From Oscillatoria nigro-viridis PCC 7112 (lineage in GTDB: Bacteria; Cyanobacteriota; Cyanobacteriia; Cyanobacteriales; Microcoleaceae): DNA of 64,000 bases. The translations under genes were made by a program, and so were the position numbers. The stretch covers positions 1,626,501-1,690,500 of the forward strand of contig NC_019729.1 of assembly GCF_000317475.1 (NCBI RefSeq), written 5' to 3'. Under the pieces are notes generated by a model that saw only the letters and a list, made by a program, of their open reading frames with translations, was not told the origin of the DNA and did no database searches. This document shows positions 24,618 through 41,228 of this stretch, piece by piece. Numbering within the stretch: the first letter of the stretch is position 1; each line of letters begins with the position of its first letter.

Positions 24618-24652
24618 AATCTAAAATCTAAAATCTAAAATCTAAAATCGAT
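24618..24652. repeat. Tandem AAAATCT heptamers flanked by GTCAATC / GATTGAC
   Basis: About four heptamers lie between GTCAATC and its inverse GATTGAC, downstream of the radical-SAM operon stop. The copies at 34190-34253 and 35810-35858 have a similar arrangement. Confidence 0.75.
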
Positions 24653-25260: not shown

Positions 25261-26072
25261 CGGTTCTCTCCCTCTTGTTTTAATAATGGGTAACGCACTG
25301 GAATTCCTGTGACACGTTCAATGCGATCGGCAAAAACCTGTAGCACTTCAGGATTGACTTGCTTCAGTTGCCTTGTCGGATACAAACAGGCATTGGGCGG
25401 ATCGTTCCCTCGTGCTTCTAGCTGATGCGTCAGGGGGCAAAGTCGCGTCGGCGTGTTGAGTTGGATTTCGTCGGGCAGTAATGCTTGCATCCGCCGGATG
25501 TACTCTGCCCGATCCTGTTCGTTCCACTCGGTGAGTAGCATCGTCTGAATGGCCAGGTGTCCTGAATAGAGTTGGCGAAATTGAAGTAAACCGGCCCAAA
25601 TGTCCAGGAGGTTGATGCTTGGCATGGGGCGATTGATGCGACAGAATGATTCAGCAGCAATGGCATCAACTTTGACAGCTACCCAATCGGCGATCGCCAG
25701 TTCCTCACACACCGCGCGATCGTTCAGCAAACTGCCGTTTGTCAATACGCCAACGGGCTTCCCGGTCATCTCCTTCACCATAACCAGAATTTCGCCTAAA
25801 TTCAGCGCCAGAGTTGGCTCACCGCTACCGCTGAGGGTGATGGTGTTCGCATCGCAGACTGAGAAAGATTGCAGATCCTGTTGAATTTTCTGAGTCGGGA
25901 CAAAAACCTGGCGATTGCAAGTCTGGTGTTCAATCTCACCTAACTGGCAATACACGCAGTTAAACGAGCAACTAGAATCAGGCCCGATCGGATCGATCCC
26001 TAGCGATCGCCCAAAGCGCCAGGATTGCACAGGACCGTAAACAGAAGTGGAGGGTGTAGTGACTGTAGACAT
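25257..26072 (-). CDS. Radical-SAM protein (COG0731/TYW1-like family)
   Basis: The 271-residue protein carries CSFNCVYC (CxxxCxxC), TLSGSGEPTLAL and VLTNGSLL, all standard radical-SAM positions. I start at 26072 (MSTVTTPSTSVYG) because the frame upstream to 26204 has no family resemblance and would overlap the desaturase. The reaction is not known. It may supply radical chemistry needed without oxygen together with the coupled NrdG-like gene. Confidence 0.82.
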   Translation of the reverse strand: MSTVTTPSTSVYGPVQSWRFGRSLGIDPIGPDSSCSFNCVYCQLGEIEHQTCNRQVFVPTQKIQQDLQSFSVCDANTITLSGSGEPTLALNLGEILVMVKEMTGKPVGVLTNGSLLNDRAVCEELAIADWVAVKVDAIAAESFCRINRPMPSINLLDIWAGLLQFRQLYSGHLAIQTMLLTEWNEQDRAEYIRRMQALLPDEIQLNTPTRLCPLTHQLEARGNDPPNACLYPTRQLKQVNPEVLQVFADRIERVTGIPVRYPLLKQEGENR

Positions 26073-26119
26073 CGCTTCAGATCGATCTCCATATATTTTT
26101 GATTTTAAGGTATGCCATT

Positions 26120-26950
26120 TTAAGTTGGTGGCATCACCACTTTTTGGGCGATACCCAATCTCTTTAACAGCCAAATTGCCCACCAGGTAGGATCGTACTC
26201 CCACCAGCGCCAGCCTGCTTTGGCAACGTTAGGATGGGCGTGGTGGTTATTGTGCCAACCTTCGCCATAGGTGAGAACAGCCGCCCACCAAAGATTGCGT
26301 GAGTTGTCATTTGTGTCAAAGGTACGGTATCCCCACAGGTGAGTGACCGAGTTAATAAACCAGGTGCTATGCCAGAGTAAAACAGCTCGGACAAACATAC
26401 CCCAGATGACAAACGACCATCCCCCCAGCGCATACAGCAGTAAACCCAGCGGGATTTGCAGCAGCAAAAAGTTTCGATTCAGCCAGCAATAAAATCGATC
26501 GCGTGCCAGATCGGGGGCAAACCGCTGGTACTGTTCATAATCGAAGAATTCTGAATTTGGGTAAAAAATCCACAGCATATGGCTCCACCAGAACCCCCGA
26601 CGGGCAGAGTAGGGATCTTTATCGACATCTTCGGTATAGGCGTGGTGCAGCCGATGACCCGCCACCCAGAAAATAGGCCCTCCTTGTAAAGCAGTGGCAC
26701 CGATCAGGGCGATCGCGTATTCCAGCCCTTTAGGCACCTGAAAACTGCGATGGCTCAATAGGCGGTGATAGCCCAAACAAATGCCAATACTGCCAAATAA
26801 CCAGTGCAAAAAGAGGGTCATCCCCAAGGCAGACCAGGAGAAGCACCAGGGTGCTAAAAGTGCGAGAGCATGAATTGTGGTGAAAAAGAATACCGCAGTC
26901 CAATCCAGTGGATATCGAGTCGGATTTGTTGGCAACAGTTTAGCGGTCAT
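26120..26950 (-). CDS. Delta9-type acyl-lipid/acyl-CoA desaturase (DesC-like)
   Basis: The 276-residue membrane di-iron enzyme has three histidine boxes: HRLLSH (62-67), HRLHH (99-103) and HNNHH (about 234-238). Hydrophobic segments lie between them, as in cyanobacterial DesC and stearoyl-CoA desaturases. It introduces the first double bond in fatty acids and needs O2. A desaturase gene (desF) has been linked to the ChlR low-oxygen regulon in Synechococcus, and its place in this island suggests a similar role here, which is inference. Confidence 0.9.
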   Translation of the reverse strand: MTAKLLPTNPTRYPLDWTAVFFFTTIHALALLAPWCFSWSALGMTLFLHWLFGSIGICLGYHRLLSHRSFQVPKGLEYAIALIGATALQGGPIFWVAGHRLHHAYTEDVDKDPYSARRGFWWSHMLWIFYPNSEFFDYEQYQRFAPDLARDRFYCWLNRNFLLLQIPLGLLLYALGGWSFVIWGMFVRAVLLWHSTWFINSVTHLWGYRTFDTNDNSRNLWWAAVLTYGEGWHNNHHAHPNVAKAGWRWWEYDPTWWAIWLLKRLGIAQKVVMPPT

Positions 26951-27208: not shown

Positions 27209-27742
27209 CTAAACCCACCAGGGTTTTTTTCCCGTGCGGGGATCGGTTTCTTTCCACGGAGAAATCCAAATCGCCTCTTCTGCGACAGCCACGCGGACGA
27301 GTTTAAGGGGAAGAGGTGCTGGGCCGCGTACTACTGTGCCCTCTGGGTCATAGCGAGAACCGTGACAGGGACATTGAAATTGATTGTCATTGGGATTCCA
27401 AGGGAAAGTACAGCCCAAGTGGGTGCAGTTATCGACAATCCCCCAAGGATGGAGCGTACCATCTTCTCTGACGGTGAGGTAGGTAGGTTCCCCAGCCAAT
27501 CCGGCAACTAAGGCGCGAGTTCCAAGGGGGTATGCTAAAATCTGGCTGGCCGGAATCAGATTTCCGTAAATATCTTTAGCGAGAAGCGAGCCATCTTCAC
27601 TCCCCTCTGCTGGCGGAACAAAGAATTTGGCTGCAGGATAAAGAGCCGCAGTAGCTGTGGCGGCGACAGCGGCTCCTGTGAGAAAGTTGAGTAGCTGCCT
27701 TCTGGACATTAAAGGATTTTCGAGTGGGATACTTTCTTCCAT
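27209..27742 (-). CDS. petC: Accessory Rieske iron-sulfur protein (PetC paralogue)
   Basis: The 177-residue protein has a twin-arginine start ([12 protein letters not shown]), one membrane anchor (about 20-42) and a Rieske domain with CTHLGC (C106, H108, C111) and CPCHGS (C124, C126, H127). It matches the cytochrome b6f Rieske subunit. The canonical petC normally sits with petA. Here it is next to DUF2892 and DUF4405 genes in a low-oxygen cluster, so it is likely a minor, condition-specific PetC, which is inferred from context. An internal ATG at residue 12 is an alternative start. Confidence 0.88.
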
Positions 27743-27763: not shown

Positions 27764-27979
27764 TTAATATTTTTGGGGATGCTGGGTTTTAGTATTAATG
27801 CCTAGCCAGCTATAGAGCGGACAAGTTCCAATTAAAGCTGTCAGGGCAGGAATAATTGAAAGAATTCCTAATCCGATTCCTAATGCCGAACCTCCATAAA
27901 CACCAAAGCCGAGGTAAAGCAGTACGCCTGCTAAACTAAAGCGGATGAGGCGATCGAGCATACCCACATTATTAAACAT
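27764..27979 (-). CDS. DUF2892 (YgaP-like) small membrane protein
   Basis: The 71-residue protein begins MFNNVGMLDRLIRFSLAG and has two hydrophobic stretches (about 13-30 and 33-55), ending in GTCPLYSWLGINT, the DUF2892 signature. A strong ribosome-binding site (AAGGAGG) precedes the ATG at 27979. The longer frame to 28132 is not needed. It lies between petC and a DUF4405 gene on the same strand. The function is unknown. Related domains occur in rhodanese and redox contexts. Confidence 0.85.
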   Translation of the reverse strand: MFNNVGMLDRLIRFSLAGVLLYLGFGVYGGSALGIGLGILSIIPALTALIGTCPLYSWLGINTKTQHPQKY

Positions 27980-28010
27980 GGCGATCCTCCTTGAGAGACT
28001 CGAATTTTTT

Positions 28011-28385
28011 TTACTTTTGAGTTGGTTCATCTGGTCGGTTGTGAATACTAAAAAACTCTTTTCTGATGTGCGATCGTTGTTCAAACAAGTCAGGATGTTG
28101 ATGAGATTTGAGCAGGTAACTGAGATATCCACGCAAGACTCGCCAGTCTAGCAATACATGAACAACAGTTACGCATAGAGCAATAACACAAACAAGAAAA
28201 TGTACATCTCCCCATTGCGATCTAGTTAAACTTAGGAACAAAGGTAGCCGCCCCGTTCCATATCCTTTGGGGGAAAACTCCAAAAGAAAGCCAGTAATTG
28301 CTGCTAGACTCCAGACAACAAGCAACGTCAAAGCAATTGTTGCTCGAACATAAGTCAATAGATGAATTTTGCGCCTGCGTGCCAT
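28011..28385 (-). CDS. DUF4405-like membrane cytochrome-type protein
   Basis: The 124-residue protein has two membrane segments (about 17-37 and 62-80). H62 and H76 lie in or at the edge of the second segment (GDVHFLVCVIALCVTVVHVLLDW). This resembles DUF4405, a cytochrome b-like, heme-binding family. It is the first gene of the run DUF4405-DUF2892-petC-desaturase, suggesting a membrane redox module with the Rieske protein. Heme binding is inferred. Confidence 0.65.
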   Translation of the reverse strand: MARRRKIHLLTYVRATIALTLLVVWSLAAITGFLLEFSPKGYGTGRLPLFLSLTRSQWGDVHFLVCVIALCVTVVHVLLDWRVLRGYLSYLLKSHQHPDLFEQRSHIRKEFFSIHNRPDEPTQK

Positions 28386-29092
28386 AGAGAACCTCCCAAT
28401 CGCCTGGATATTTTTGCCAGCGATCGCTAATCAGAAAAAAAACACTCCACAATCTCAAATGGTCTTCTGGCTTCTGCCTCAGTTTTTGACGGGTCATAAG
28501 GAATACCAATTCGATCTAACAAAGGCTCAATTGCCACAGCCTTAGCATTCAAATCGCAATCCTTAAACGGGTCATAACCGCCTTCAGGCGTGGGATGAGC
28601 TTAACTCAGGTTCGGTTCCACCACCAGATAACCAACCATCTTACAGATCTCAACTCTGCCGACAAGATAGTTACGTTCAAGCCCCTATAGTTACGGCGAG
28701 TAAAAGATTGGGAACGGCTAATAGATTGAAGCTATTCCGAAAAAATTGTTAAATTTTCGCTGGCACGAGCGCAATGACTTATTAACCCGTTCAACACTGA
28801 TTTGGATGCACTACCGAGTTGCTGATGCGGTCTAATGTTCTAGCGTTCTTTCGAGCGACCAAAAACAAATCGTAACAATTTTTTTATAAGTGTCTCAAGT
28901 TCAGAATTTGAGCCAATGCTTTACCCCAATCAACTATGAGACAGCACCGGTAACTGACTTGTAGGCGAGAGAGGATTAAAGTAAAAATGTTTTTGCAGGA
29001 GCGCGAATTAAATAGCTTCCAAAAATCGATGTTATTTAATTCTTGTTTCTGAGCCAGATTACAATATCACTTTTCCTCATTTTTTTGAAATC
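28386..29092. other. Regulatory region between the DUF4405 operon and psbA
   Basis: The divergent promoters of the DUF4405 operon and psbA should be here. On the minus strand 28427-28590 is an orphan 50-codon open stretch (..IEPLLDRIGIPYDPSKTE..) with no start, possibly a gene remnant. An IS-end-like hairpin CGCCTTCAGGCG is at about 28581-28592. The conserved 55-bp block at 28914-28968 is described separately. Confidence 0.5.
28914..28968 (+). promoter_or_regulatory. 55-bp regulatory block shared with chlAII
   Basis: This block is 47/55 identical, without gaps, to the reverse complement of 37903-37957, which lies upstream of chlAII. Invariant parts include CAATGCTTTACC, AACTAT, AGCAC and GGTAACTGACTTGT. 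It ends 124 bp before the psbA ATG. Two AACT-type half sites lie about 20 bp apart, two DNA helical turns, which suits an activator dimer. A common low-oxygen regulator is inferred. Confidence 0.8.
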
Positions 29093-29747
29093 ATGACAGC
29101 TATCTTCAAACAGCGCGATCGCGCTAATGTTTGGGAGCGATTCTGCAACTGGATCGCCAGTACAGAGAATCGAATTTATATTGGCTGGTTTGGAGTCCTC
29201 TTAATTCCGACAGCCCTAACCGCAGCCATTGTCTTTGTCCTCGCCATGATTGCGGCTCCCCCCGTGGATATCGACGGGTTGCGGGAACCTGTATCCGGTT
29301 CGCTGCTCTACGGTAACAACATCATCACCGCGACGGTGGTTCCTAGCTCCAATGCCATTGGCTTGCACATTTACCCAATGTGGGAAGCCGCTTCCCTGGA
29401 TGAATGGCTTTATAATGGCGGTCCCTGGCAACTAATCGTGTTCCATTTTCTGATTGCGATCTATGCCTACATGGGTCGGCAATGGGAACTGAGCTATCGG
29501 TTAGGAATGCGTCCCTGGATTGCAGTTGCCTACTCTGCTCCTGTGGCAGCAGCAACATCCGTGTTATTGATCTACCCGATCGGACAGGGCAGTTTCTCAG
29601 ACGGTTTAATGCTGGGAATTTCTGGAACCTTTAACTTCATGATCGTGTTCTCTGCCGAGCACAACATCCTGATGCACCCGTTCCATATGTTGGGTGTAAT
29701 AGGCGTGTTTGGCGGTGCGTTGTTTAGTGCCATGCACGGGTCTTTAG
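29093..29747 (+). pseudogene. psbA: 5' part of psbA encoding D1' (photosystem II), interrupted by an IS
   Basis: Codons 1-218 plus one base encode D1 through MHGSL, with Y161, D170, E189, H190, H198 and H215 all present. Residues A80 and L158 (Gly and Phe in normal D1) are two of the three marks of D1', the variant made under microaerobic conditions. After 29747 the frame runs into the IS and ends at 29872 with about 41 foreign residues. The rest of the gene is at 31782-32209. Confidence 0.93.
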
Positions 29748-29820
29748 CTAGACAGACGGGAATCCCCACACCATACCGATCAAGGTTGGTGTGGGATGAA
29801 AGGCGCGTGAGACGAGGATT

Positions 29821-29868
29821 CCATCTGTCCACAATCTCAAGGCGCAGCTTTGAGCGGTGGACAGATGG
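29821..29868. repeat. Long hairpin inside the IS605 left end
   Basis: CCATCTGTCCAC pairs perfectly with GTGGACAGATGG, with an inner CTCAA/TTTGAG stem. It lies just past the tnpA stop and could terminate tnpA transcription. Confidence 0.7.
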
Positions 29869-29887
29869 ATGACGAGACGAACAAATC

Positions 29888-30301
29888 TTATTCTACAGGT
29901 CTATCTTGCCCCTCAATATACTTCTTTAATTGCTCAACCGTCACGCCACCACATGAAGCAATAAAATATCCATTTGTCCAAAAAACATCTTTCCAGTAAA
30001 CTTTTTCAACTTCATCTACAAACTCTTTCCGCAAATAGCGACTAGATACAGTCTTAAGATTGTTGATAAGCTTACTTGGTTCAGTTTGCGGTGTATATTG
30101 AAGCAGCAAATGTACGTGGTCACGCTCACCATTAAATTCTACCAATCTTCCTTCCCATTTTTCCATTAAGTTCTTGAAAATTTCCTCAAGCCTAGACAAC
30201 ATTTGATCGGTCAGAACTTTCCGCCGATACTTGGTTGTCAACACTAAATGACACTTGAGATCGGAAACTCCTCTGGCTTTATGGATAAAATCTGTACTCA
30301 T
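29888..30301 (-). CDS. tnpA: IS200/IS605 TnpA, HUH-type Y1 transposase
   Basis: The protein has the HUH motif (GERDHVHLLLQY) and the catalytic tyrosine helix (VEQLKKYIEGQ). I use the ATG at 30301 (MSTDFIHKARGVSDLKCHLV), the usual family start. The open frame extends to 30340. The length of 137 residues is normal. TnpA cuts and joins single-stranded ends. The gene looks intact, so the element may still be able to excise from psbA. Confidence 0.9.
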   Translation of the reverse strand: MSTDFIHKARGVSDLKCHLVLTTKYRRKVLTDQMLSRLEEIFKNLMEKWEGRLVEFNGERDHVHLLLQYTPQTEPSKLINNLKTVSSRYLRKEFVDEVEKVYWKDVFWTNGYFIASCGGVTVEQLKKYIEGQDRPVE

Positions 30302-30367
30302 AGACTTGACACCAAACAACATTCTCTGATAAATTAACACTAATTAATGCGTATCGGCTACGATGCA

Positions 30368-31750
30368 ATGAAAGCGACCTACCAGTACCAGTTCTATCCC
30401 GACACTAATCAAAAGTTAACCCTCAACCATTGGCTGAGAATCTGTCGCTATTGGTATAATCGACAGTTAGGTGATCGATTTGATTGGTGGGAGATGAACC
30501 GCACTGCTATAAATGCTTGTCCATTGATTGCTAGCATCTCTGCGCCCCGTGCGAAGCCCAACTACTACTCCCAAAAACAACAATTGCCCGTCATTAAGAA
30601 AGACCTAGTAAAAGTTTTTCATAGTGGCGAACTTTTGGATTTTAAGCAGGTAGATTCAACCGTACTGCAAGATGTCTCTAAGCGAGTAGACAAAGCTTTC
30701 GAGCGGTTTGTCATAGGGGATAGTAAGGGCGGAAGATCGGGTAAACCCCGCTTCAAGACTGAGGCAGACTACCGGACGATGACTTTTTCTACAGCTAACA
30801 GCGACTGGATTAAGTTGGTTCGTAAGAATTGGCTTTATATCCGACTGCCAAAGCTAGGCATCATAAAAGTTCGGATGCACCGTCTAATCCCTGATGGGTT
30901 TAGCGTCAAGCAAATCAGCGTAACTAGGAAGGCTGACGGTTGGTTCATCCAAATAATGCTTGAAGACGCTTCAGTACCGCAGTTTATTCCTGATAAAATT
31001 ACCCCAAACTGGAACAACTCGATCGGGTTGGATGCGGTACTGCATGAAGATGTCTACCTGGCATCATCATCGGGCGAAAAGTTGCCTTCGTTAAAACCAC
31101 TTCGTAAAAACCAATCTAAGTTAGACCGCATTTCAAGGAAGCGGAATAAGCAAAAACGTGGCTCTAAATCTCGACGAAAATTAGCCAAAAAAGAAGCGAG
31201 ACAACACCAAAAAATAGCGCGTTCTCGCCAAGACTTCCATTACAAAACGGCTCACAAACTTGTCAAGTCTGGAGCTAAGTTTTTCTTTCACGAAGATTTG
31301 AACTTAAAGGGCTTAACAAAGCGGAATAAAGTTAAGCAAGACGATGAGGGTAATTACCTTCCGAACGGTCAATCAGCAAAATCAGGATTGAATAAATCTT
31401 GGTTGGATGCTGCGTTCGGTCAATTTTTCAAGACGCTGGAATACATAGCCGAAAAAGCTGGATCAGTCGTCGTTTCGCAAAAACCTGCTTATACTTCAAT
31501 GGTTCTGTGCTATCGGAATGAAATCATTTTTACCGATTGTGGGATACGGAATTATTGGGATGAGCAAAACTCTCTGATGGTTGATCGCGATATTAATGCT
31601 GCGATAAATCTAAAGAGACTTGGGTTGGACATTTTCCCAAGTATAAAACGCCGTAGCGGGAATCTTTCTGTGGTGGGAACTATGGATGACAGTACCGTAA
31701 AGGAAATCTTGCACACCCTTCATCGGGCTGCTAAGAAGCCCACATCATAA
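30368..31750 (+). CDS. tnpB: TnpB of the psbA-inserted IS605 element (non-canonical zinc region)
   Basis: The 460-residue protein is divergent from tnpA. RuvC positions: Asp in SIGLDAVLHEDVYL, Glu in FFHEDLNLKGL, Asp in VDRDINAAINL. The usual Cys4 ribbon between the last two is replaced by LCYRNEIIFTDCGIRNYWDE, which has no paired CxxC motifs. It starts at 30368 (MKATYQYQFYPD) in preference to 30347. A subfamily lacking the ribbon is plausible rather than a damaged copy, because the surrounding sequence is well formed. Confidence 0.88.
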   Translation: MKATYQYQFYPDTNQKLTLNHWLRICRYWYNRQLGDRFDWWEMNRTAINACPLIASISAPRAKPNYYSQKQQLPVIKKDLVKVFHSGELLDFKQVDSTVLQDVSKRVDKAFERFVIGDSKGGRSGKPRFKTEADYRTMTFSTANSDWIKLVRKNWLYIRLPKLGIIKVRMHRLIPDGFSVKQISVTRKADGWFIQIMLEDASVPQFIPDKITPNWNNSIGLDAVLHEDVYLASSSGEKLPSLKPLRKNQSKLDRISRKRNKQKRGSKSRRKLAKKEARQHQKIARSRQDFHYKTAHKLVKSGAKFFFHEDLNLKGLTKRNKVKQDDEGNYLPNGQSAKSGLNKSWLDAAFGQFFKTLEYIAEKAGSVVVSQKPAYTSMVLCYRNEIIFTDCGIRNYWDEQNSLMVDRDINAAINLKRLGLDIFPSIKRRSGNLSVVGTMDDSTVKEILHTLHRAAKKPTS

Positions 31751-31781
31751 CTGTACTCAGTTTGATGTGGGAGTATGTCAC

Positions 31782-32209
31782 TAACCTCCAGTCTGGTGCG
31801 CGAAACGACCGAACAAGAGTCTCAAAACTATGGCTATAAATTTGGTCAAGAGGAGGAAACCTACAACATTCAAGCAGCCCACGGCTACTTTGGACGGCTG
31901 ATCTTCCAGTATGCCAGTTTCAATAATTCCCGCGCTTTGCACTTTTTCCTGGCTGCCTGGCCCGTAGTCGGAATTTGGTTTGCGGCATTGGGAATTAGCA
32001 CCATGTCTTTCAACCTGAATGGACTCAATTTCAACAATTCCATCCTAGACAGCCAGGGACGACCGATTGCCACCTGGGCAGATATCCTCAACCGTGCCAA
32101 TCTAGGGATTGAGGTGATGCACGAGCGCAATGCCCATAACTTCCCCCTGGATTTAGCTTCTGCTGAAGCTCAACCGATCGCCCTAGTGACTCCTGCCATT
32201 AAGAGCTAA
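31782..32209 (+). pseudogene. psbA: 3' part of psbA (D1') after the IS
   Basis: It encodes the last 141 residues of D1, from [10 protein letters not shown] to the C-terminus. H252, S264, H272, H332, E333, D342 and the A344 processing point are present, followed by a 16-residue C-terminal extension. Residue 286 is Ala instead of Thr, the third D1' mark. Joined to 29093-29747 it gives exactly 360 residues, the normal precursor length, with no other damage. Confidence 0.92.
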
Positions 32210-32226
32210 GCGGTTGAACGACAAGT

Positions 32227-32278
32227 CTTCTATAAGTGCAATAGCACCCCTTATGGGATGCTATTGCACTTATAGAAG
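32227..32278. terminator. 20-bp perfect hairpin after psbA
   Basis: CTTCTATAAGTGCAATAGCA and its exact inverse flank a 12-base loop. No T run follows, so it may stabilise the psbA message or stop convergent transcription with hcp rather than act as a classical terminator. Confidence 0.6.
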
Positions 32279-32355
32279 AGATATAAATGGCAAAGATCGC
32301 GGCTACACAAACAAAGCCCCAAAGGCACGCACAGATGGAAACCCAGAACTCCCAC

Positions 32356-34005
32356 TCAGTTCAAACAAGCTGCCAGATCGGCATCGGGGGTGGTAATGGG
32401 CTGCAAGTTGTATTGCTCCGACAGAAGCTTGAATACATTGGGAGAAATAAACGCCGGTAATGTCGGCCCTAGGCGAATGTTTTTAATCCCCAGATGCAAG
32501 AGAGTTAGCAAGACGGCTACTGCCTTCTGTTCATACCAGGACAGAATCATGGACAGGGGTATATCGTTGACACCTACCTCAAAGGCATTGGCTAGGGCTA
32601 CAGCAATCTGAATCGCGGAGTAGGCATCGTTGCACTGACCAACATCCATCAGGCGGGGTAGTCCGTCAATGTCGCCCATTTGTCGATCGAAGAAGCGAAA
32701 CTTGCCGCAAGCTAGGGTGAGCACGACACAATCATCAGGCACTTTTTCGACGAACTCGGTGTAGTAGTTGCGATCGGGTTTGGCTCCATCACAGCCCCCC
32801 ACCAGGAAGAAATGGCGGATTTTACGCTGTTTCACAGCCTCAATGATTTTATCTGCCACCCCTAGGACTGTATTGTGGGCAAAACCAACTGTGACTTCCC
32901 TGGCCGGTGCATCTTCAGTAAAGCCGGGAAGTGCCAGTGCTTTCTCAATAACGGGAGTAAAATCGGGTGTGCCACTGTCGATCGCACTCAAGTTAATAAT
33001 GCCGGGATAGCCGACTGGGCCAACGCTAAAGAGTTTATCTTCATAATAGGAATGAGTTGGCATTAAGCAGTTGGTCGTAATCACGATCGCACCGGGGAAC
33101 TTGGCAAAATCCTTAGTTTGGTTCTGCCAAGCGGTGCCGTAGTGACCGTAGAGATGGGGGTACTGCTGTTTGAGTTTGGGATAACCGTGGGCGGGGAGAA
33201 GTTCGCCGTGGGTGTAAACCGTAATTCCAGTGGCTGCGGTTTGCTTCAGTATGGCTTCGAGTTGTTTGATGTCATGTCCTGAAACCAGAATCGCCTTCCC
33301 TTGCCGTGGATTGAGGGGAACAGGCGTGGGAATTGGGTGCCCGTAGGTAGTGGTATGTCCGGCATCCAACAGTTCCATCGATCGCAGATTGATGGCTCCC
33401 ACCTCAAGAGCAAGATTCACCCACTCCTGCAAGCCCAAGGTCTGGTTATCGAGAGCGGTCAGCGCTTCATAAATGAAACGATACACCCGCTCGTCTTCCT
33501 GTCCAACTTCGTAGGCGTGGAAGGTGTAGGAGGCAAGACCCTTAACGCCGTATAGTACGGTGAGTTTGAGCGAGAAAATATCCACATCCGAGGCAGACTG
33601 ACTGAGGAACTGGAGGGAAATCTGCTCACCCTGCTCAACGAGGTTCTCGTCAAAGTTGGGTTCCCAGTTGGAAATTTCAGCCCAAGTGGGTGGATTGTCT
33701 GTTGCTTGCTGTACTTGAGCCTTGAGGTTGGCGCGATGGGCGATCGCTTCCTGGAGATACTCAACAAACCGCTTTTCGGAAAAGTTGACATTCGTCATCG
33801 TGGCAAATATCGCTTCGCAGGTGAAGACATCCACTGCATGAGTATCAATGCCTAACTCCTTTGCTTTCAGGGCAATCGGAGCCAACCCGCGCAGATAATA
33901 AATCAGCAGATCTTGGATAGCATTCACCTGGGGACTTTTCCCACAAGCACCAAACTGATGGCATCCTTGTCCGCTTGCTGTTTGTTCGCATTGTTCGCAG
34001 AACAT
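32356..34005 (-). CDS. hcp: Hybrid cluster protein (hydroxylamine reductase)
   Basis: The 549-residue protein has the N-terminal cysteine set CEQCEQTASGQGCHQFGAC (C3, C6, C15, C21) for an Fe-S cluster. Further conserved segments bind the hybrid Fe-S-O cluster (VGGCDGAKPDRNYY, LACGKFRFF, DVGQCNDAYSA). HCP reduces hydroxylamine and acts as an NO reductase in anaerobic or nitrosative stress. It is convergent with psbA and followed on the same side by hemN. Confidence 0.95.
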   Translation of the reverse strand: MFCEQCEQTASGQGCHQFGACGKSPQVNAIQDLLIYYLRGLAPIALKAKELGIDTHAVDVFTCEAIFATMTNVNFSEKRFVEYLQEAIAHRANLKAQVQQATDNPPTWAEISNWEPNFDENLVEQGEQISLQFLSQSASDVDIFSLKLTVLYGVKGLASYTFHAYEVGQEDERVYRFIYEALTALDNQTLGLQEWVNLALEVGAINLRSMELLDAGHTTTYGHPIPTPVPLNPRQGKAILVSGHDIKQLEAILKQTAATGITVYTHGELLPAHGYPKLKQQYPHLYGHYGTAWQNQTKDFAKFPGAIVITTNCLMPTHSYYEDKLFSVGPVGYPGIINLSAIDSGTPDFTPVIEKALALPGFTEDAPAREVTVGFAHNTVLGVADKIIEAVKQRKIRHFFLVGGCDGAKPDRNYYTEFVEKVPDDCVVLTLACGKFRFFDRQMGDIDGLPRLMDVGQCNDAYSAIQIAVALANAFEVGVNDIPLSMILSWYEQKAVAVLLTLLHLGIKNIRLGPTLPAFISPNVFKLLSEQYNLQPITTPDADLAACLN

Positions 34006-34114
34006 AGATTTTTTCCTTGTTGAATTGGTTATAATTTACGCAACAACTCGGTTATGAAAGTATTTATCCGTCCCTAACTATGTTAACAAATCTGAGTTAA
34101 CAACTCTGACAAGC

Positions 34115-34253
34115 GAATTTCAAAGGTGATACCCGCCACGTGATTTATCCGTGGAATCAATCCCAAATCGAAAATCGAAAATCCTCAAGAAAGAGCATTT
34201 ATCTCGCGCAAGTCAATCTCAAATCTAAAATCTAAAATCGCGCAATCGATTGA
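34115..34253. repeat. Composite dispersed repeat, copy 2
   Basis: It has the same order of motifs as 20337-20476: GAATTTCAAAGGTG, CCGTGG, ATCAATC, ATCTCGCGCAAGTCAATC, AAAATCT heptamers and a final GATTGAC. It lies in the hcp-hemN gap. Confidence 0.75.
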
Positions 34254-34260
34254 CGATGAT

Positions 34261-35658
34261 TCATAGGGACTTGGAAAACCGTTTGCTGGAGTGGGGGATG
34301 AGATAGCTATCAAACACGGAGGCAATATTGCGAATTAGCAATCGCCCGATCGCTGTTACTTCAATGCCATCGCCCCAACGTTTGATTAACCCATCGGCTT
34401 CTAAGGCATCAAGTTGTGGCAAAACCTGGGCGAAATAGTCATTAAAATCGAGATCGAAGCCGAGATGGTATTTTTCTTCCAAATCTTGCACCGACAGTTG
34501 GAATTGACACATTAATTCCATGATTACTGTGCGCCGAATCAGATCGTCCTGATTAAGTATAACACCTTTTTCGATCGGCAATTCGTTCCCATCGATCGCC
34601 CGATAAAAGTCTTTTAATCCCTTGTGGTTTTGGGTATACACATCCTGCAACATACTGATGGAAGTCATGCCAAAGCCCAACAGATCCGATTCGGGCTTAG
34701 TGGTATAACCCTGAAAATTACGATGGAGTTGCCCAGCTTGTTGCGCGATCGCCAGTTCATCGTTAGGCTTGGCAAAGTGATCCATGCCAATAAACACATA
34801 GCCATTTTGGGTTAGTTGGGCGATCGTACTTTGCAGAATTTTCAGCTTTTCGCCAGCAGTCGGCAAAGCAGATTCCGGCATCCGTTTCTGAACCGGTTTG
34901 AGCCAGGGAACATAGGCAAAATTAAAGACGGCAATGCGATCGGGATTTAATTGCAAGGTCTTCTGTACCGTTTCCTGGAACGTTGCTTGTGTCTGGAAAG
35001 GTAAGCCGTAAATCAAATCTACATTGACACTTTCAAACCCTGCTTCCCGAATCCAATCCATCACATCAAACAACATCGCTTCGGGCTGCACCCGATTGAT
35101 TGCTTCCTGCACGGTGGGATTAAAGTCTTGAATGCCAAAGCTAATCCGATTGAAGCCTAATTGTCGCAGAAATAGAATATATTCGCGATCGATATAGCTA
35201 GGATTGACTTCGATCGATATTTCTGCCGCGTCATCGAACCGAAAATATCGATTTAACTGGTTCCACAGACACTCTACCTGACTGCGATCGAGATAGTTGG
35301 GCGTGCCGCCGCCCCAGTGCAACTGATGCACCAGCCGATCGGCATCCACCAAAGTGGCAACTTGGCGAATTTGGCTAGCGAGATACCCTAAATAGGGTTG
35401 TATCACCTCCTTGCGCTGGGTAATGATGGTATTGCAGCCGCAGAAATAACAGGGCGTTTCACAAAAGGGGATGTGGCAGTAAAGCGATAAGGGAGTTTGT
35501 TTGTGATTGCCGACGGCGATCGCGGTTATAAATGCTTTGCGATCGAAGTCAGTGCTTAATTCTGTGGCGGGTGGATAGCTGGTATAGCGAGGTAAAGGCT
35601 GGTTGTATTTATTCAACAATGCAGCATCAAATTCAACTGTTTGTGATAAGTGTTTCAT
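34261..35658 (-). CDS. hemN: Oxygen-independent coproporphyrinogen III oxidase
   Basis: The 465-residue radical-SAM enzyme converts coproporphyrinogen III to protoporphyrinogen IX without O2. It shows CHIPFCETPCYFCGC (CxxxCxxC plus a fourth Cys), HWGGGTPNYL and a C-terminal HemN domain. The start at 35658 (MKHLSQTVEF) gives the usual length. The frame extends to 35706 only into unrelated sequence. It lies downstream of ho and chlAII, a known low-oxygen gene set in cyanobacteria. Confidence 0.94.
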   Translation of the reverse strand: MKHLSQTVEFDAALLNKYNQPLPRYTSYPPATELSTDFDRKAFITAIAVGNHKQTPLSLYCHIPFCETPCYFCGCNTIITQRKEVIQPYLGYLASQIRQVATLVDADRLVHQLHWGGGTPNYLDRSQVECLWNQLNRYFRFDDAAEISIEVNPSYIDREYILFLRQLGFNRISFGIQDFNPTVQEAINRVQPEAMLFDVMDWIREAGFESVNVDLIYGLPFQTQATFQETVQKTLQLNPDRIAVFNFAYVPWLKPVQKRMPESALPTAGEKLKILQSTIAQLTQNGYVFIGMDHFAKPNDELAIAQQAGQLHRNFQGYTTKPESDLLGFGMTSISMLQDVYTQNHKGLKDFYRAIDGNELPIEKGVILNQDDLIRRTVIMELMCQFQLSVQDLEEKYHLGFDLDFNDYFAQVLPQLDALEADGLIKRWGDGIEVTAIGRLLIRNIASVFDSYLIPHSSKRFSKSL

Positions 35659-36006
35659 TAACTGATGTGTCCTTTTGGTAGTGTATAATATCAATTCCGG
35701 TTGCACCGTCCGTGATTGTTGACAGTTGACAGTTGACAGTTGACAGTTGACAGTTGACAGTTGACAAGCGAAATATTTTACACCTACTTTCCAGCTTCCA
35801 GATTCATCTGTGGAGTCAATTCTAAAATCTAAAATCTAAAATCTAAAATCGACTGACTGTTTACTGTTGACTCGGGGTCGAAAAACTCAATGGTTGAGTG
35901 TTAACTGTTGACTCGATTTTATGATTCCGATGCAACCGGAAACGATATAACTTCAGAGCCCCGGCATATTTTAGAGATACGATCGATCTTGTTTTCCTCG
36001 ATCGAT
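35659..36006. other. hemN-ho intergenic region with two tandem-repeat arrays
   Basis: It holds seven TTGACAG-type heptamers (35719-35766) and AAAATCT heptamers (35816-35852). No gene is present. It separates hemN from the chlAII-ho pair, so hemN may have its own promoter or the operon may read through. Confidence 0.55.
35719..35766. repeat. Tandem heptamer array TTGACAG
   Basis: Six perfect copies and one partial copy in a row. It is related to the TGTTGAC array inside gcvP (45774-45829). Confidence 0.9.
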
Positions 36007-36753
36007 CTATTTCGCGACAGATTCTCGCTGGGCAGCATGAGAGTGGCGTTCTGTACTGCCGGGGCGATCTTGCCGAGTCAGCAAATCAAAGGTATGGTCT
36101 CCAATCGCCGCTTTGACATCGGCTTCGAGTTCGTGCATCACATCCCGGTTGAGGGCAAATGCCGTATTTGCTTCTGCGACAATTCGCTCGATCGTGTCAG
36201 CATCCACCGGAAACTCATCCAGGGTTTGGCGATAGCGTTCCTTAAATACTCGCCTTGCTTCTGGTGTCGAGATTTGGGAAAATTCATAGAAATTTGTTCC
36301 CCGATCCGGCGGCAGAGACAACGCCGATCGAATCACGTTTTTCAAGCTTTGTCCGCCGGATAAATCACCCATGTAGCGGGTGTAGGCATGGGCAATCAGC
36401 AGGACTGGATCGGTTTTTGAGAGGGTTTGAATGCGATCGCGATACACACAACCCGCTGGCGAAGCCGTAATTTCCTCCAGCCAATCTTCACCGTAATAAA
36501 AAGCTAGATCGCAAGCCAGATTCTCAGTGCGATTTAACTCAGGGAAATAGAGAGTCCCGATAATCGGGTGGCTGACATGGTTCTGCAAAGCCGTTTCTAG
36601 GGCGCTGTAAACAAAGTACAAATCGGCAAATAGTTTACGCAAAGGTTCCCGTTCCACAATGCCTTTGATAAAGCATTTCATAAATGCCGTATTTTCGGCT
36701 GTGGTGTGGGATTGGATCGTGCCTTCTCGGAGGCGTGTCGATAGATTAGTCAT
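36007..36753 (-). CDS. ho: Heme oxygenase (low-oxygen type, HO2-like)
   Basis: The 248-residue enzyme opens heme to biliverdin for phycobilin synthesis. The proximal ligand is H16 in TIQSHTTAEN, and the distal helix has YMGDLSGGQSL. Length is normal. It begins 12 bp after the chlAII stop, so the two are co-transcribed. In Synechocystis the paralogue HO2 lies in the same chlAII-ho2-hemN set and is induced at low O2. Confidence 0.93.
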   Translation of the reverse strand: MTNLSTRLREGTIQSHTTAENTAFMKCFIKGIVEREPLRKLFADLYFVYSALETALQNHVSHPIIGTLYFPELNRTENLACDLAFYYGEDWLEEITASPAGCVYRDRIQTLSKTDPVLLIAHAYTRYMGDLSGGQSLKNVIRSALSLPPDRGTNFYEFSQISTPEARRVFKERYRQTLDEFPVDADTIERIVAEANTAFALNRDVMHELEADVKAAIGDHTFDLLTRQDRPGSTERHSHAAQRESVAK

Positions 36754-36764
36754 GGCAATATCTC

Positions 36765-37841
36765 CTAATTAATAGCGGTTCTGGACGATTCAGCATTAAT
36801 CGAGGGCAGTAAATAAAGGCGCAACAACTGCCAGAAAATCGCAGCAATCAAGGGTAATTTTTGGCAAAATTGGATGGCGGCAGGGCGCTGGTTACTTGAG
36901 ATTTCTGCTAGCTTCTGATTGGCGATCGCGCATCGCTCCAAACGGGGAAAGAATTCTGGATGGTGAGTATCTAAAATACTGGGAAACGCCCGTTTTGCCG
37001 TTTCATTGGTGCGATCGATCACCTGCTTGTTATATTCCTGGGGGTCGATGCCGATCGAGTCATAAAATGTGGAGCGTTCCAACACCGTCATAGTGTGGGT
37101 GGCAAACACCGTCAGCAGGAAAAAGCGCGCCCAGAGTCTTGCCTTCCAGTTATTCCAAAGCTGAGGCTGCGATCGCAACAATGCCTTGAAGAAATCCCCA
37201 TGCCGATTTTCGTCTTGGCACCAATTCTCGAAGTAGCGAAACAGGGGATAAATTTGATGTTCGGGATGTTGTTGGAGATGGCGATACACCAAAATATAGC
37301 GCCAGTAGCCAATTTTTTCCGACAGATAAACAGTATAAATTACCCATTCGGGAGGGAAGAATGTGTAGGTACGATTTTTTGTTAAATAGCCCAGATCCAG
37401 AGACAACCCAAAATCTGCCATTGCTTTATTCAAGAAACCTGCATGGCGCGCTTCATCCCGTGCCAGTAGGTTAAAGGCTTCCGATAACAACGGTTGGCGA
37501 TTCTTGAGTTTGCGGGAGAGTTCTTTGAACAACAGAAAACCCGAAAATTCTGAGGTACAGGAGCGCTCTAGAAAGTCAATAAATGCCTTTCGCGTTTCGC
37601 CATCAATGTTGTCCCAGCATTGCTCAAACTCTTGATTGCGGACAAAATGGTGCCGGTTATAGTCCGCGCGCAATTCTGCTACAACTGCTTCTAATTCTGC
37701 TTGTTGACCGGACAGATCCATTTCGGCAACGGCATCAAAATTGGTGGTGTAAAAGCGGGGTGTTAACAGGGTTTCTTGAACGGGTGCTTTAATGCCGGAT
37801 GGCAGACCAGCAGACTCCGATTTACTAATTGAACTGACCAT
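36765..37841 (-). CDS. chlAII: Mg-protoporphyrin IX monomethyl ester oxidative cyclase, low-oxygen form
   Basis: The 358-residue di-iron enzyme (AcsF family) forms the fifth ring of chlorophyll. Metal motifs are [18 protein letters not shown] and DENRHGDF (Glu and ExxH). I start at 37841 ([10 protein letters not shown]), which gives the usual AcsF length and places the conserved 55-bp block upstream as a promoter element. The frame continuing to a GTG at 37910 would overlap it. First gene of the chlAII-ho(-hemN) set. Confidence 0.93.
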
Positions 37842-37902
37842 AGGAGTGGAGAGTGGATTTTTCGGAATAGATGACTGTGCACCACATTGCCTTAATCCGC
37901 GA

Positions 37903-37957
37903 TCGCCCACAAGTCAGTTACCAGTGCTATCCTATAGTTACTTGAGGTAAAGCATTG
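37903..37957 (-). promoter_or_regulatory. 55-bp regulatory block upstream of chlAII
   Basis: The reverse complement matches 28914-28968 at 47/55 positions without gaps. The chlAII copy shows TAACT twice, 20 bp apart, and TTACC..GGTAA as an outer inverted pair. It ends 61 bp before the chosen chlAII ATG. The divergent HxlR regulator gene starts 155 bp on the other side and is the obvious candidate to bind here. Confidence 0.8.
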
Positions 37958-38112
37958 AAGCAAATAGGACGCTTGAGCCATTTCTAAAGAAATATTAATT
38001 TTCGGGTTTGGCAAATCAAAAAAACGTTACAAACATTTTAGAAGTCCAACCCAGCTTGAGATTGCGATCGCGCAGTTATCTACCCCTGGAATATCCATTT
38101 TGAAGGGAGTTT

Positions 38113-38514
38113 ATGGTGGAAGCGAGTCAGTGCATAGAGGTTAAATGTCCGATTCAATTTGTGCTGGATTTGTTGGACAATAAATGGTCTATTTTGGTTC
38201 TACGCGAACTGTTTGGAGGCGCGAGGCGTACCCACGAATTACTCGCGGCACTTCCTGGTATCAGCACCAAAACCCTCACCCAACGCCTCCGAGAGTTGGA
38301 ATCTCAAGGGTTAGTCGATCGCCGCGTTTATGCCGAGATTCCGCCCCGTGTAGAATATTCTCTCACGCCCAAGGGTCGCCAAATTCAACCGGTGATGACA
38401 GCCCTGCATCAAGTAGGATCGCAGTGGCTGGGACAGGAGAGTTGTATTTGTCCCCTAACACACTCGGATGCTAACGACGATCGCATAGACGATTCAGGTA
38501 TAATTTCAGATTAA
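38113..38514 (+). CDS. HxlR-family transcriptional regulator, possible Fe-S oxygen sensor
   Basis: The 133-residue winged-helix protein has the HxlR core (LLDNKWSILVLRELFGGARR, LPGISTKTLTQRLRELESQGL, VEYSLTPKGR). Four cysteines flank the DNA-binding domain in pairs: C7 and C12, and C111 and C113 (ESCICPL). That could ligate a 4Fe-4S cluster. It is divergent from chlAII, the position taken by ChlR, the oxygen-sensitive Fe-S activator of chlAII-ho2-hemN described in Synechococcus. Equivalence to ChlR is inferred from context. Confidence 0.85.
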   Translation: MVEASQCIEVKCPIQFVLDLLDNKWSILVLRELFGGARRTHELLAALPGISTKTLTQRLRELESQGLVDRRVYAEIPPRVEYSLTPKGRQIQPVMTALHQVGSQWLGQESCICPLTHSDANDDRIDDSGIISD

Positions 38515-38652: not shown

Positions 38653-41228
38653 ATTAAAGTCAGTGAAGGAGTCGCCTCCTCCACTGCTCTCCAAAACGGA
38701 ACGTGATAGTTTCCCATCATTCCGCTCCTCAATAAAACGGCTGTTGTCATCAGTACGTCATTACCAACATATCGTTTTCCCAAGCCCAAAGGCTTGGTTC
38801 CACTGGTGGCTTAGGTTTAGCACTTTTGCAGCTAGATTTGTTACCAAGACTGCCATCATTGGCAGTCTTTGTGTCGTGGCAATGTCGATGGAGTAGCTGC
38901 CAATTATCATACGATTCCTTTCCACCTTTCGATTTGGGGGCGATGTGGTCAACCTCTATCGAATCTCCATCTTTGAAGTAGTTATCGCAGTGAGCGCATT
39001 TCCCTTTTTGTCGCTTGAGTAGTTTGGCTACTCTTACGGGTATTTCTGGGTGTACTCCCATTCTTGAACTCCAATATATCCAGTCACCGTCATAGGGTGA
39101 TGCCATCCCTTTTACTTTTACATAGCGCTTTATTTCAGTGGAACTATGTTGTATGAGCTTTAGAGGATTGTTACCCTCTCCGGTTGCGAACACCCAGTTA
39201 TTGCCTTCTACGGTTTTGAAGTATTTAAGGCGTGTCCATCCTCTGCCCTTGTTCCTATGACGATGGCGACCCCATTTGAGAAGCTTCCAAACCACTAAGT
39301 GCCACAGCCTATCAAATATTTTCTTGCTGACGACTGTTGAGAAGTAGTTACACCAACCCCTAATGATAGGATTGAGATTTTTTATTAAAGTCGCTTGGTT
39401 TAACCCACGCGATTTATTTATTACTTCCGCAACTTTTCTGTAGTGCCTTTTCTGACTTTCCTTGCTAGGGCTGATAATAGTTTTAAAGCCCAATAAAGTG
39501 CCTCTAGTTCCCTTACTTGAGTTGTGTTTTCCTACTGGAAACTGCCTGATGTTGAATCCTAGAAAGTTAAATCCAGGTTTTTCATCATCTAGTTTATTCA
39601 GGGTGTGGGCTAATCTTGTTTTACTCGGCTTTAATTCTAACCCAATGTCACTTAACCACTTCTCTATCTCAACCTTACACAGCTTCACAACTTCTACATC
39701 CTCATGGAGAACTACGAAATCGTCCGCATATCGTATCAGTGAAATCGATTTGATTTTGTCTCGTAATCCATAAGTATGACCACGAGAGTCTCTCATCTCG
39801 AATTTTGGGGCTAAACCCATAATCAATTCCTCAATCCCATGTAAGGCGACATTGGCAAGTAGAGGTGAAATCACCCCGCCCTGTGGTGTCCCTTCATCAG
39901 TTGGGAACAGCTTGTTTCCATCCATAACACCAGCTTTTAACCAAGCCCGGATTTGTCTCCGTAGGGTAGGATAGGTATTTAATTTTGAGAGAAGTACATC
40001 ATGGTTAATGCGGTCGAAGCATTTACTGATATCGGCATCCAGCACATATTTTGATTTCTGACTTACCGCACTGAATATTGCTCCTATTGCATCGTGGCAC
40101 GAGCGTCCTGGTCTGAACCCGTATGAGTTAGGTTCAAATCGCGCTTCCCATTCTGGTTCTAACACCAGTTTGACTAACGCTTGCAAGGCTCGGTCTTCCA
40201 TTGTCGGTATGCCTAACGGTCTTTCCTCATCTGTCCCTGGTTTGGGTATCCAAACTCGGCGTGTTGGCTTAACCTTTGAACCCAATGATATTTTATCTAT
40301 CAGTGCGAGACGTTGCTTTGGGGTCAGCGATTTAACACCGTCCACGCCTGCCGTCTTCTTTCCTTGATTATCTTGTGTTACCCGACGAACCGATAATGCT
40401 TTTGCTGCCCAAGAACTTATCAACAGTTTCTGGAGTCTGCGTACTAGCTTGACATCACCACGATTAGACGCTTGATATATCCGCTTTTGCAATTTAAAAA
40501 CGTTACGCTCTAGCTTTCGCCAGTTGATATCGTTCCATTCATACATCGGTTTTTCTACCGTGTTCATAACATATTCATTGCTACTTGTAGCTATACCATC
40601 CGTATTACCGTAAGTCCGTTAGCATATCCTCACCATTGCAGTGAGGCGTTGGCTTTTGACTCAATCTCTACCACCTGTTACCTGGAAGTCCAGATGTTTC
40701 GTCTTAGCTGACTGCTCGAAGTATTCGACCTCTTCGAGAGTAATCAGGTGGGTTACTTCGTTCCTCATAACCATTGGTCTGTTCCGTTAGGATGTCACCT
40801 CTTCACCGAGTTTTTGGGTAACGTAGGTATGTCGGGCAAAATTCTCATACCACCCTGTACTAATGCCCTTTTGGGACTACCAGCGCATAAAGCCTTATTT
40901 CGCTGGTTCGCCGTAACGGTGATTCAGGCAGTGACTTCGCATTTGCTATCCGTAGGAACTTGCTCACGGGATACCACTTTTAGGCTAGTGGCTCTTTCCG
41001 CTTTTATCTCCGCTTCACCGATTGATGGCTAGTCTCTACAGTGGGAGATATGCTTTCACCTCTACGTCTGAGGGGCAGGACTTATCGTTTTCTAGGATAC
41101 TAACGCTCACCTGCAAGGTTATGAAGTTGTCATCTACAAGGGATTAAAGTGCGAACTCAATCCTCATGGATTACCCTGTAGAAGCCAGTCATCCCCCAAT
41201 TTCTCGGTTTCGACTGAACGAATCGCAC
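38653..41228 (-). mobile_element. Group II intron with LtrA-type protein (2576 bp)
   Basis: The 5' end is GTGCG (41228 downward), the standard group II start. Near the 3' end, GAGCGG..GGGAAACT..CCGTTTT (about 38695-38730) has the domain V form with a GAAA loop. A domain VI hairpin (AGTGGAGGAG/CTCCTTCACT) follows, and the intron ends ..TTTAAT at 38653. Excision restores tnpB in frame, which fixes both ends. The intron is oriented with its host gene, so splicing could rescue TnpB. Confidence 0.9.
38750..40567 (-). CDS. ltrA: Group II intron reverse transcriptase/maturase with HNH endonuclease
   Basis: The 605-residue protein has RT motifs (WIPKPGTDEERPLGIPTMEDR, GTPQGGVISPLLANV, and YADDF as the catalytic centre), a maturase X domain (about 370-470), and a C-terminal HNH nuclease (CAHCDNYF, VDHIAPKSKGG, LLHRHCHDTKT). 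All active-site residues are present. It should assist splicing and target-primed reverse transcription. It starts at 40567. An internal Met at residue 8 is also possible. Confidence 0.93.
   Translation of the reverse strand: MNTVEKPMYEWNDINWRKLERNVFKLQKRIYQASNRGDVKLVRRLQKLLISSWAAKALSVRRVTQDNQGKKTAGVDGVKSLTPKQRLALIDKISLGSKVKPTRRVWIPKPGTDEERPLGIPTMEDRALQALVKLVLEPEWEARFEPNSYGFRPGRSCHDAIGAIFSAVSQKSKYVLDADISKCFDRINHDVLLSKLNTYPTLRRQIRAWLKAGVMDGNKLFPTDEGTPQGGVISPLLANVALHGIEELIMGLAPKFEMRDSRGHTYGLRDKIKSISLIRYADDFVVLHEDVEVVKLCKVEIEKWLSDIGLELKPSKTRLAHTLNKLDDEKPGFNFLGFNIRQFPVGKHNSSKGTRGTLLGFKTIISPSKESQKRHYRKVAEVINKSRGLNQATLIKNLNPIIRGWCNYFSTVVSKKIFDRLWHLVVWKLLKWGRHRHRNKGRGWTRLKYFKTVEGNNWVFATGEGNNPLKLIQHSSTEIKRYVKVKGMASPYDGDWIYWSSRMGVHPEIPVRVAKLLKRQKGKCAHCDNYFKDGDSIEVDHIAPKSKGGKESYDNWQLLHRHCHDTKTANDGSLGNKSSCKSAKPKPPVEPSLWAWENDMLVMTY

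Follow-up and report, generated by a model that had tools for sequence, protein, structure and literature searches.

The chromosome of Oscillatoria nigro-viridis PCC 7112 carries nearly the same 55-bp block before a psbA gene for the D1' variant of photosystem II (PSII) and before chlAII, a gene of anaerobic chlorophyll synthesis, which raises the question of whether one regulator joins the two. The stretch analyzed here, referred to as the window, comprises 64,000 nucleotides of contig NC_019729.1 (positions 1,626,501 to 1,690,500). The blocks, three of which were found, are very probably promoter-proximal operators from which the regulator ChlR activates one low-oxygen gene cluster; we infer binding, activation and the oxygen response from the sequence, its conservation, its specificity in the genome, its association with ChlR proteins of four cysteines (4-Cys ChlR) and the gene content, while Fe-S sensing and activation of chlAII are presumed by analogy with other strains. 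ChlR has been published in such strains as an Fe-S oxygen-sensing activator; in Synechocystis it activates chlAII-ho2-hemN, and its constitutively active D35H variant binds the psbA1 (D1') promoter in electrophoretic mobility shift assays, according to the available part of PMC4500134. The links of ChlR to chlAII and psbA1 are thus already known, and the central idea is supported rather than new.

Three copies of one block in the genome

The block before psbA (28914-28968, forward strand) and the reverse complement of that before chlAII (37903-37957) give an ungapped match of 47/55, which confirms what a first-pass annotation of this DNA had reported. When either 55-mer was scanned over both strands of the window, where the background averages 13.8-13.9 matches with a standard deviation of 3.2, the best off-target place was a third copy overlooked by that annotation (28656-28710, reverse strand), which matches the chlAII block at 34/55 and the psbA block at 31/55 positions; the next-best places do not exceed 29/55. 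This copy is oriented toward an operon of DUF4405, DUF2892, petC2, desaturase, radical SAM and activase genes. The psbA and petC2-operon sites are arranged divergently in the interval separating psbA from the operon, with a core spacing of 216 bp in the window, 217 bp in a Microcoleus sp. (genome G015, locus L105) and 214 bp in Cyanosarcina (L101).

The blocks share a 43-bp core, TTTAC-N5-GTAACTAT-N12-GTAACT-NN-CTTGT (28920-28962 for psbA, 28662-28704 for the petC2 operon and 37909-37951 for chlAII), which at up to three mismatches has three matches in the window and none in 100 shuffles; the chlAII and petC2 copies fit without mismatch and the psbA copy with two. At the same threshold, three places are found in the 8,272,254-base genome and none in the reversed control. 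The first-pass annotation had proposed such a genome scan and had placed both of its blocks upstream of genes expected to be induced at low oxygen; the scan returns only these three sites, all at genes of low-oxygen type, the third adding a promoter to the two already named. No block match occurs on the plasmids of this strain, and a half-operator pattern with one mismatch, used for a fourth genomic site, has 10 places versus 8 in the reversed control, which is no excess.

The regulator and its predicted operator

The 133-aa protein encoded at 38113-38514 (forward strand), divergent from chlAII-ho2-hemN with the operator between them, belongs to the HxlR family (PF01638, E 4.7e-33), and the 11 solved sequences found for it include HxlR, HypR/YybR and YodB. 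It carries a C-X4-C-P motif (CIEVKCP, residues 7-13) and two further cysteines in a CIC near the C-terminus; a C-X4-6-C-P motif and four cysteines form the signature of 4Cys-type ChlR as described in PMC4500134, in the part available. Its Asp22 stands ten residues after the second cysteine, as D35 does in the Synechocystis PCC 6803 protein (counted by eye, unaligned to Sll1512). By these sequence features the regulator adjoining chlAII is assigned as a 4-Cys ChlR, which lends support to the earlier suggestion that the block is the operator of one regulator, probably this divergent HxlR protein.

The published ChlR site, the palindrome TTMCC-N3/4-GGWAA (accessible portions of PMC5295598 and PMC13421787), corresponds to the left dyad of a longer unit. 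The consensus of 26 distinct cyanobacterial cores, retrieved by a search pattern with 18 of its letters fixed, is TTTACy-N4-GTAACTAT-N12-GTAACT-NN-CTTGT; the second GTAACT and CTTGT are conserved as strongly as the first half, several of those letters having been fixed by the selecting patterns. Compared with the published palindrome, 51 distinct cores include 7 exact matches, 26 with one mismatch, 16 with two and 2 with three, and none of the window blocks is exact (chlAII one mismatch, petC2 two, psbA more than two). As a search tool the short motif was dropped, showing at up to two mismatches little or no enrichment in the window (202 matches versus 176 expected for N3, and 195 versus 178 for N4). 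The operator, as read from the aligned sites, is longer than the published 13/14-bp palindrome, consisting of the left dyad, a second GTAACT 20 bp on, CTTGT and an upstream AT-rich element (element A); this extended form is new here.

Not every detail of the first-pass description of the block stood. The half sites said to repeat at about 20 bp are seen in the chlAII and 28656 copies, where the GTAACT starts are 20 bp apart, but the psbA copy reads TCAACT first; taken alone, GTAACT-N14-GTAACT at up to two mismatches gives 5 matches in the window versus 2.98 expected, a number reached in 15/100 shuffles and not significant. A TTACC..GGTAA frame around the block is not conserved in the consensus of the 26 cores. 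The flanks had been described as sharing only GTAAC and then a T run further upstream; that string is the psbA version of element A, which is present at most of 42 non-redundant sites.

Element A resembles TTTAAyATTTCTTTAGAAAT, with an inner palindrome ATTTCT-TT-AGAAAT, and occupies, in most of the 42 sites, the bases about 49-29 ahead of TTTAC, where the mean information is 0.78 bit/position at -49..-30, compared with 0.08 at -75..-53 and 0.18 at -19..-7. Its best position is -49 in 37/42 sites and -50 in 3 (L019 and L029 differ), a tally biased that way by a matrix built from the same sites at -49; the element is absent at L148 and L156. In the window it is found before psbA (28871-28891, forward strand, CGTAACAATTTTTTTATAAGT), the petC2 operon (28733-28753, reverse) and chlAII (37980-38000, reverse, AATTAATATTTCTTTAGAAAT). 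Searching the genome with its consensus at up to two mismatches gives the chlAII copy (exact) and two other places, with 3 in the control; this pattern does not reach the psbA and petC2 copies, which diverge too far from it.

The operators precede the -35 position. Sites of the petC2 class have TTGTSR, which overlaps CTTGT, followed after 16 bp by TARRAT in 4/4, a layout that fits an activator contacting the -35 region; the window representatives are TTGTCG (28660-28665) and the -10 candidate TAAGAT (28638-28643), both on the reverse strand. For psbA, TTGTAG at the -35 position (28959-28964) and a weak -10 candidate TAAAAA (28982-28987), on the forward strand, are assigned by position only, and the chlAII block holds TTGTGG (37907-37912, reverse).

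Distribution of the operator and of ChlR

A BLAST search with the psbA block in a 98-genome sample matched the own genome and 6/28 others of the genus (G003, G006, G010, G015, G024, G027), with no match in the more distant genomes. Among these others of the genus, it is again these six that have a ChlR of at least 85% identity; G007 and G014 have a ChlR of 64-65% and no block match.

An exact scan with a relaxed 18-base pattern, covering one genome for each of 84,980 species, returned 35 stretches, 28 cyanobacterial and 7 not, with about 7.5 chance matches expected overall at equal base frequencies. Nineteen of the 28 precede chlAII, among them L105, which holds all three window-type sites. 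The others stand before a chlAII remnant and radical SAM gene (L095), petC2 or DUF2892-petC2 (L100, L101), activase (L079, L098), phosphoketolase (L085), and an alternative-oxidase-like gene with a phosphoketolase-like gene next to it (L089, L091; L091 by eye), while L102 diverges from chlR, with the contig running out on its downstream side. In L101 an additional psbA site was found by position weight matrix, scoring 49 bits versus at most 3.7 in shuffles.

A search of 388 genomes of the class at up to three mismatches, which shares genomes with the species-wide scan and is not independent of it, gave 31 places in 26 genomes versus 1 place in the reversed control. The genes behind them are chlAII (17), PTOX (5, that of L144 truncated), the petC2 operon (2), activase (2), and one each of psbA (the window), aldehyde dehydrogenase (AdhE-like by eye) and pyruvate formate-lyase (PFL); two places have no assigned gene (L149, probably chance, and L160). 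Pfam confirmed Aldedh (L139), PFL-like (L158, and L159 behind PTOX), AOX (L154) and XFP (L085). Operators before PTOX, PFL, aldehyde dehydrogenase and phosphoketolase genes are those of L085, L089, L091, L139, L154, L155, L156, L158 and L159, and a divergent ChlR of 60-77% identity is encoded at L085, L089/L155, L139, L154, L156 and L158. Six sites (L136, L143, L144, L145, L146, L159) have no chlR in the fetched stretch of at most 1.5 kb per side, indicating that the operators are not merely the control region of chlR itself.

Two truncated forms of chlAII were seen behind an intact operator. In L087 (4698-5279) chlAII residues 1-128 are fused directly to the end of a desaturase gene, and in L095 (882-1100) the remnant stands before the radical SAM gene; these would be either internal deletions or assembly joins.

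The operator was further compared with the occurrence of ChlR in the 30 best loci from the 373 genomes with a ChlA match. It is present in 12 of these (in one, L065/G262, weak at 28 bits), and a ChlR of 73-100% identity occurs in 11/12 operator-bearing genomes versus 0/18 operator-less ones, whose HxlR paralogs, where there are any, reach at most 48% identity (Fisher p 2e-7, uncorrected for relatedness, which could account for much of the split). A tally of regulator cysteines against nearby sites has its exceptions in L029 (one cysteine, a stop codon and a weak site with four mismatches), L148 (split gene), five loci (L020, L022, L026, L027 and L028) where the cysteine motif has no site nearby, and L023-L025, of 62-66% identity, with neither. 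The loci of this cysteine tally, fetched partly by operator and partly by ChlR, are not an unbiased sample. On these comparisons the long operator goes with 4-Cys ChlR. In family f33, taken here to be Nostocaceae, to which the operator-less genomes of that comparison belong, several chlAII loci (L055, L068, L070, others) share, close to the chlAII start, a string resembling CAATAATTTAACTGATG that often follows TTTAC/TTACTTT (by eye) and is perhaps another operator of that lineage.

The D1' gene and its promoters

The psbA gene of the window is split at 29747/29748 into a 5' part (29093-29747) and a 3' part (31782-32209), both on the forward strand, by an IS200/IS605-type insertion sequence (IS) of 2,034 bp (29748-31781) with an IS200-type tnpA (29888-30340, reverse) and an IS605-type tnpB (30347-31750, forward). 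Its residues are A144, L158 and LML at 172-174, where the other psbA copies of the genome have C, F and MPL in 7/7, and its best solved match is 7yq2, 'D1 2'. Residues of PsbA2 type (144 not Cys, 158 Leu, 173 Met) are presumed here to mark D1', the low-oxygen PsbA. The split copy is then the sole D1'-type gene among 8 psbA copies, the other 7 being standard D1; two further search matches of 29% identity were taken as psbD and left out of the count. The Microcoleus sp. G015/L105, 95% identical at this locus, lacks the insertion. As its sequence stands, this strain is a natural D1' knock-out that has retained the operator, the site facing a broken gene.

With the window D1' as query and E <=1e-128, a threshold that admits closer relatives only, 24/388 genomes of the class match at 25 places, namely the window locus plus 24 in 23 further genomes, and every one reads xML at 172-174; the upstream region of L206 is masked, leaving 23 readable loci of other genera. 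The best ChlR-block score among these is -8.1 bits (L196, shuffle p 0.003) versus 50.0 in the window, and the window, G015/L105 and Cyanosarcina L101 are the only places where a psbA link through the block was seen. On this D1' sample (0/23) we reject the idea that the block joins psbA to chlAII in cyanobacteria at large, and the earlier claim that the block ties use of a PSII variant to anaerobic chlorophyll synthesis is supported for those three places alone. A different pattern, TTGACA-NN-TATATAACT-NNNN-AGTTATAAA, is found, among the D1' loci of other genera (L184-L205, L207), in 15/24 within three mismatches and in 19 within five; its palindrome (TATAACT-N4-AGTTATA-like) sits between -35 and -10, where a repressor site would be expected. 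Scanned class-wide, this pattern gives 34 places in 32 genomes and 3 in the reversed control, and 21/30 fetched loci (L208-L236 among them) precede psbA, L226 and L235 with partial or broken matches; other genes behind it, all by eye, encode a globin-like protein (L211), a membrane protein (L213) and an NDH-2/SQR-like flavoprotein (L237). Judged by these patterns, D1' has at least two promoter types.

Other genes of the cluster

Behind the chlAII operator, on the reverse strand, lie chlAII itself (36765-37841), encoding an AcsF-type Mg-protoporphyrin monomethyl ester cyclase that is a low-oxygen isoform by context and whose ATG start at 37841 was assigned by judgement, ho2 for heme oxygenase (36007-36753), hemN (34261-35706) and, downstream of hemN, hcp for a hybrid cluster protein (32356-34005), a presumptive member of the operon. 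The third operator is followed, also on the reverse strand, by genes for a DUF4405 protein (28011-28385), a YgaP-like transmembrane (DUF2892) protein (27764-28132), PetC2, the Rieske subunit of cytochrome b6f (27209-27742), a fatty acid desaturase, DesF-like by context only (26120-26950), a radical SAM protein (25257-26204) and an NrdG/PflA-like glycyl-radical activase below the curated NrdG cut-off (24628-25260). Just past chlR, a reverse transcriptase/maturase-like open reading frame with an HNH-like end (38750-40567, reverse) was seen by eye, as was a second IS200/IS605-like tnpA/tnpB pair (41189-42788, reverse).

Proposed mechanism and alternative readings

In the proposed mechanism, a [4Fe-4S] ChlR dimer of HxlR/MarR type would bind the left dyad TTTAC-N5-GTAA at low oxygen, and a second dimer would probably occupy the GTAACT 20 bp (two turns) downstream, abutting the weak -35 CTTGT; bound ChlR would recruit RNA polymerase, and oxygen would destroy the cluster, leaving the promoters silent. 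The genes co-activated in this way would be chlAII-ho2-hemN(-hcp), psbA(D1') and the DUF4405-DUF2892-petC2-desaturase-rSAM-activase operon, while element A would probably bind another factor or aid activation. The operon extents, the two-dimer arrangement and the role of element A are the presumptive parts of this scheme.

Several observations weigh against it. The ChlR block is absent within 600 bp of all 23 readable D1' loci of other genera; the -10 elements of the psbA and chlAII classes are weak, and a generic -35/-10 scan of 28550-29100 missed the -10 elements of psbA and petC2, giving one unrelated match with 1.3 expected. The psbA copy lacks the first GTAACTAT, having TCAACTAT instead, and has more than two mismatches to the published motif, and the psbA-chlAII identity lies partly at consensus-free positions (25/31), which speaks for copying as well as constraint. 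All 18 operator-less genomes come from family f33, and G176 has the operator and no ChlR match. RNA-seq in Synechococcus PCC 7002 found only chlAII, ho2, hemN and desF as ChlR targets, with no psbA, in the account available from PMC4500134.

It is conceivable, though unlikely, that local duplication or conversion recently copied the chlAII promoter to psbA, that the resulting block has no maintained function and that ChlR acts at chlAII and petC2 only. The window psbA and chlAII cores agree at 25 of the 31 pattern-free positions, a higher agreement than each shows with its Cyanosarcina counterpart (22 and 23), the first GTAACTAT of psbA is degenerate and the gene is broken by the IS. The psbA site is nevertheless kept in G015 (53/55, gene uninterrupted) and Cyanosarcina (43/55), at near-equal spacing to the petC2 site, and Synechocystis ChlR binds psbA1 in the available part of PMC4500134. 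At the free positions, psbA and petC2 of the window agree at 9, about chance, petC2 agrees with its Cyanosarcina counterpart at 25, and psbA and chlAII inside Cyanosarcina agree at 19/31. A single promoter cassette appears to have been copied at psbA and chlAII, and petC2 to have kept its own separately; we attribute the high psbA-chlAII identity to operator constraint plus copying.

That the regulator is another factor, whether a one-Cys HxlR paralog of 44% identity (C1:4530178), RpaB acting at a site like HLR1, CnfR or another, is somewhat less probable still. The element A consensus fits KTTACAWWNNKTTACAWW, which we take to be the pattern of HLR1, the RpaB site, at 14/16 positions (shuffle p 0.001), whereas the single window copies match at just 12-13/16 (p 0.02-0.05); this resemblance is a lead only. 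HLR1 example sites are given in the accessible text of PMC6331805, and for CnfR no sequence for comparison was found in that of PMC8510180. Some family-f33 genomes that lack the ChlR block have an A-like TTAATATTTCTTTAGA ahead of chlAII, and element A may therefore belong to another factor; in Acaryochloris, a motif search gave a putative ChlR site before ho2 only, as far as PMC5295598 is available. In the fetched loci, by contrast, none of the one-Cys HxlR paralogs (30 distinct, of at most 49% identity) has the block nearby, and the block accompanies 4-Cys ChlR.

A mobile repeat, suggested by the nearby IS and the reverse transcriptase frame further on, or chance similarity has next to no probability, the genome holding at up to three mismatches three copies only, all of them lying at promoters and recurring ahead of the same genes in other genomes, and a scattered motif is ruled out on the same grounds. 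Activation of the three promoters by ChlR is retained as the preferred reading.

Implications and relation to known systems

A broader proposition, in our judgement an even call, is that 4-Cys ChlR goes beyond the regulation of tetrapyrroles and serves as a general anaerobic switch, a cyanobacterial counterpart of FNR, acting by way of a single long cassette of operator and promoter (element A, dyad, GTAACT and CTTGT). Its targets would depend on lineage and include chlorophyll, heme and bilin synthesis, D1', a Rieske isoform, desaturase, PTOX, PFL, glycyl-radical activase, aldehyde/alcohol dehydrogenase and phosphoketolase, and the D1' gene would have moved between this activator cassette and the repressor-like TATAACT-N4-AGTTATA promoter. 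The short ChlR motif, unspecific alone in the window, becomes a 43-bp cassette suited to low-background searches of whole genomes, making the regulon of the 4-Cys type predictable. One Fe-S oxygen sensor is predicted to set PSII type, cytochrome b6f type, alternative oxidase and fermentation in some lineages, with D1' control rewired between lineages; these predictions offer testable answers on how cyanobacterial photosynthesis is coupled to anoxia.

FNR of E. coli activates fermentation and other low-oxygen genes, and its protein family and DNA site are unrelated to ChlR. It is alike in being an Fe-S oxygen sensor that regulates transcription, and is named beside ChlR in the available part of PMC4500134. 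HxlR of Bacillus subtilis shares PF01638 and the role of activator and was solved with a 20-bp palindrome (7BZG), but senses formaldehyde through a Cys-Lys crosslink rather than oxygen through an Fe-S cluster (PMC7835342, in part). A petC copy of Acaryochloris that neighbors psbA1 and a DUF2892 gene is induced together with psbA1 at low oxygen, as told in the accessible portion of PMC5295598, which fits the reading of the petC2-operon site. In titles and abstract openings of the open literature searched, no ChlR sites are reported at petC2, PTOX, PFL, AdhE or phosphoketolase, and the long cassette, the petC2-operon site and the wider regulon appear new when set against the operator as described in the available parts of PMC4500134, PMC5295598 and PMC13421787. 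The nearest known systems are ChlR of Synechocystis PCC 6803 (Sll1512) and of Synechococcus PCC 7002, likewise small HxlR/MarR-type proteins with C-X4-6-C-P and four cysteines; the former shares the chlAII-ho2-hemN and psbA1 targets, and the latter the divergence of chlR from chlAII and the desF target (PMC4500134, same portion). Unlike the site known for either, the conserved unit described here adds a second GTAACT, CTTGT and element A, and unlike the four targets of PCC 7002, the predicted sites extend to the petC2 operon and, elsewhere, to genes for PTOX, PFL, aldehyde dehydrogenase and phosphoketolase.

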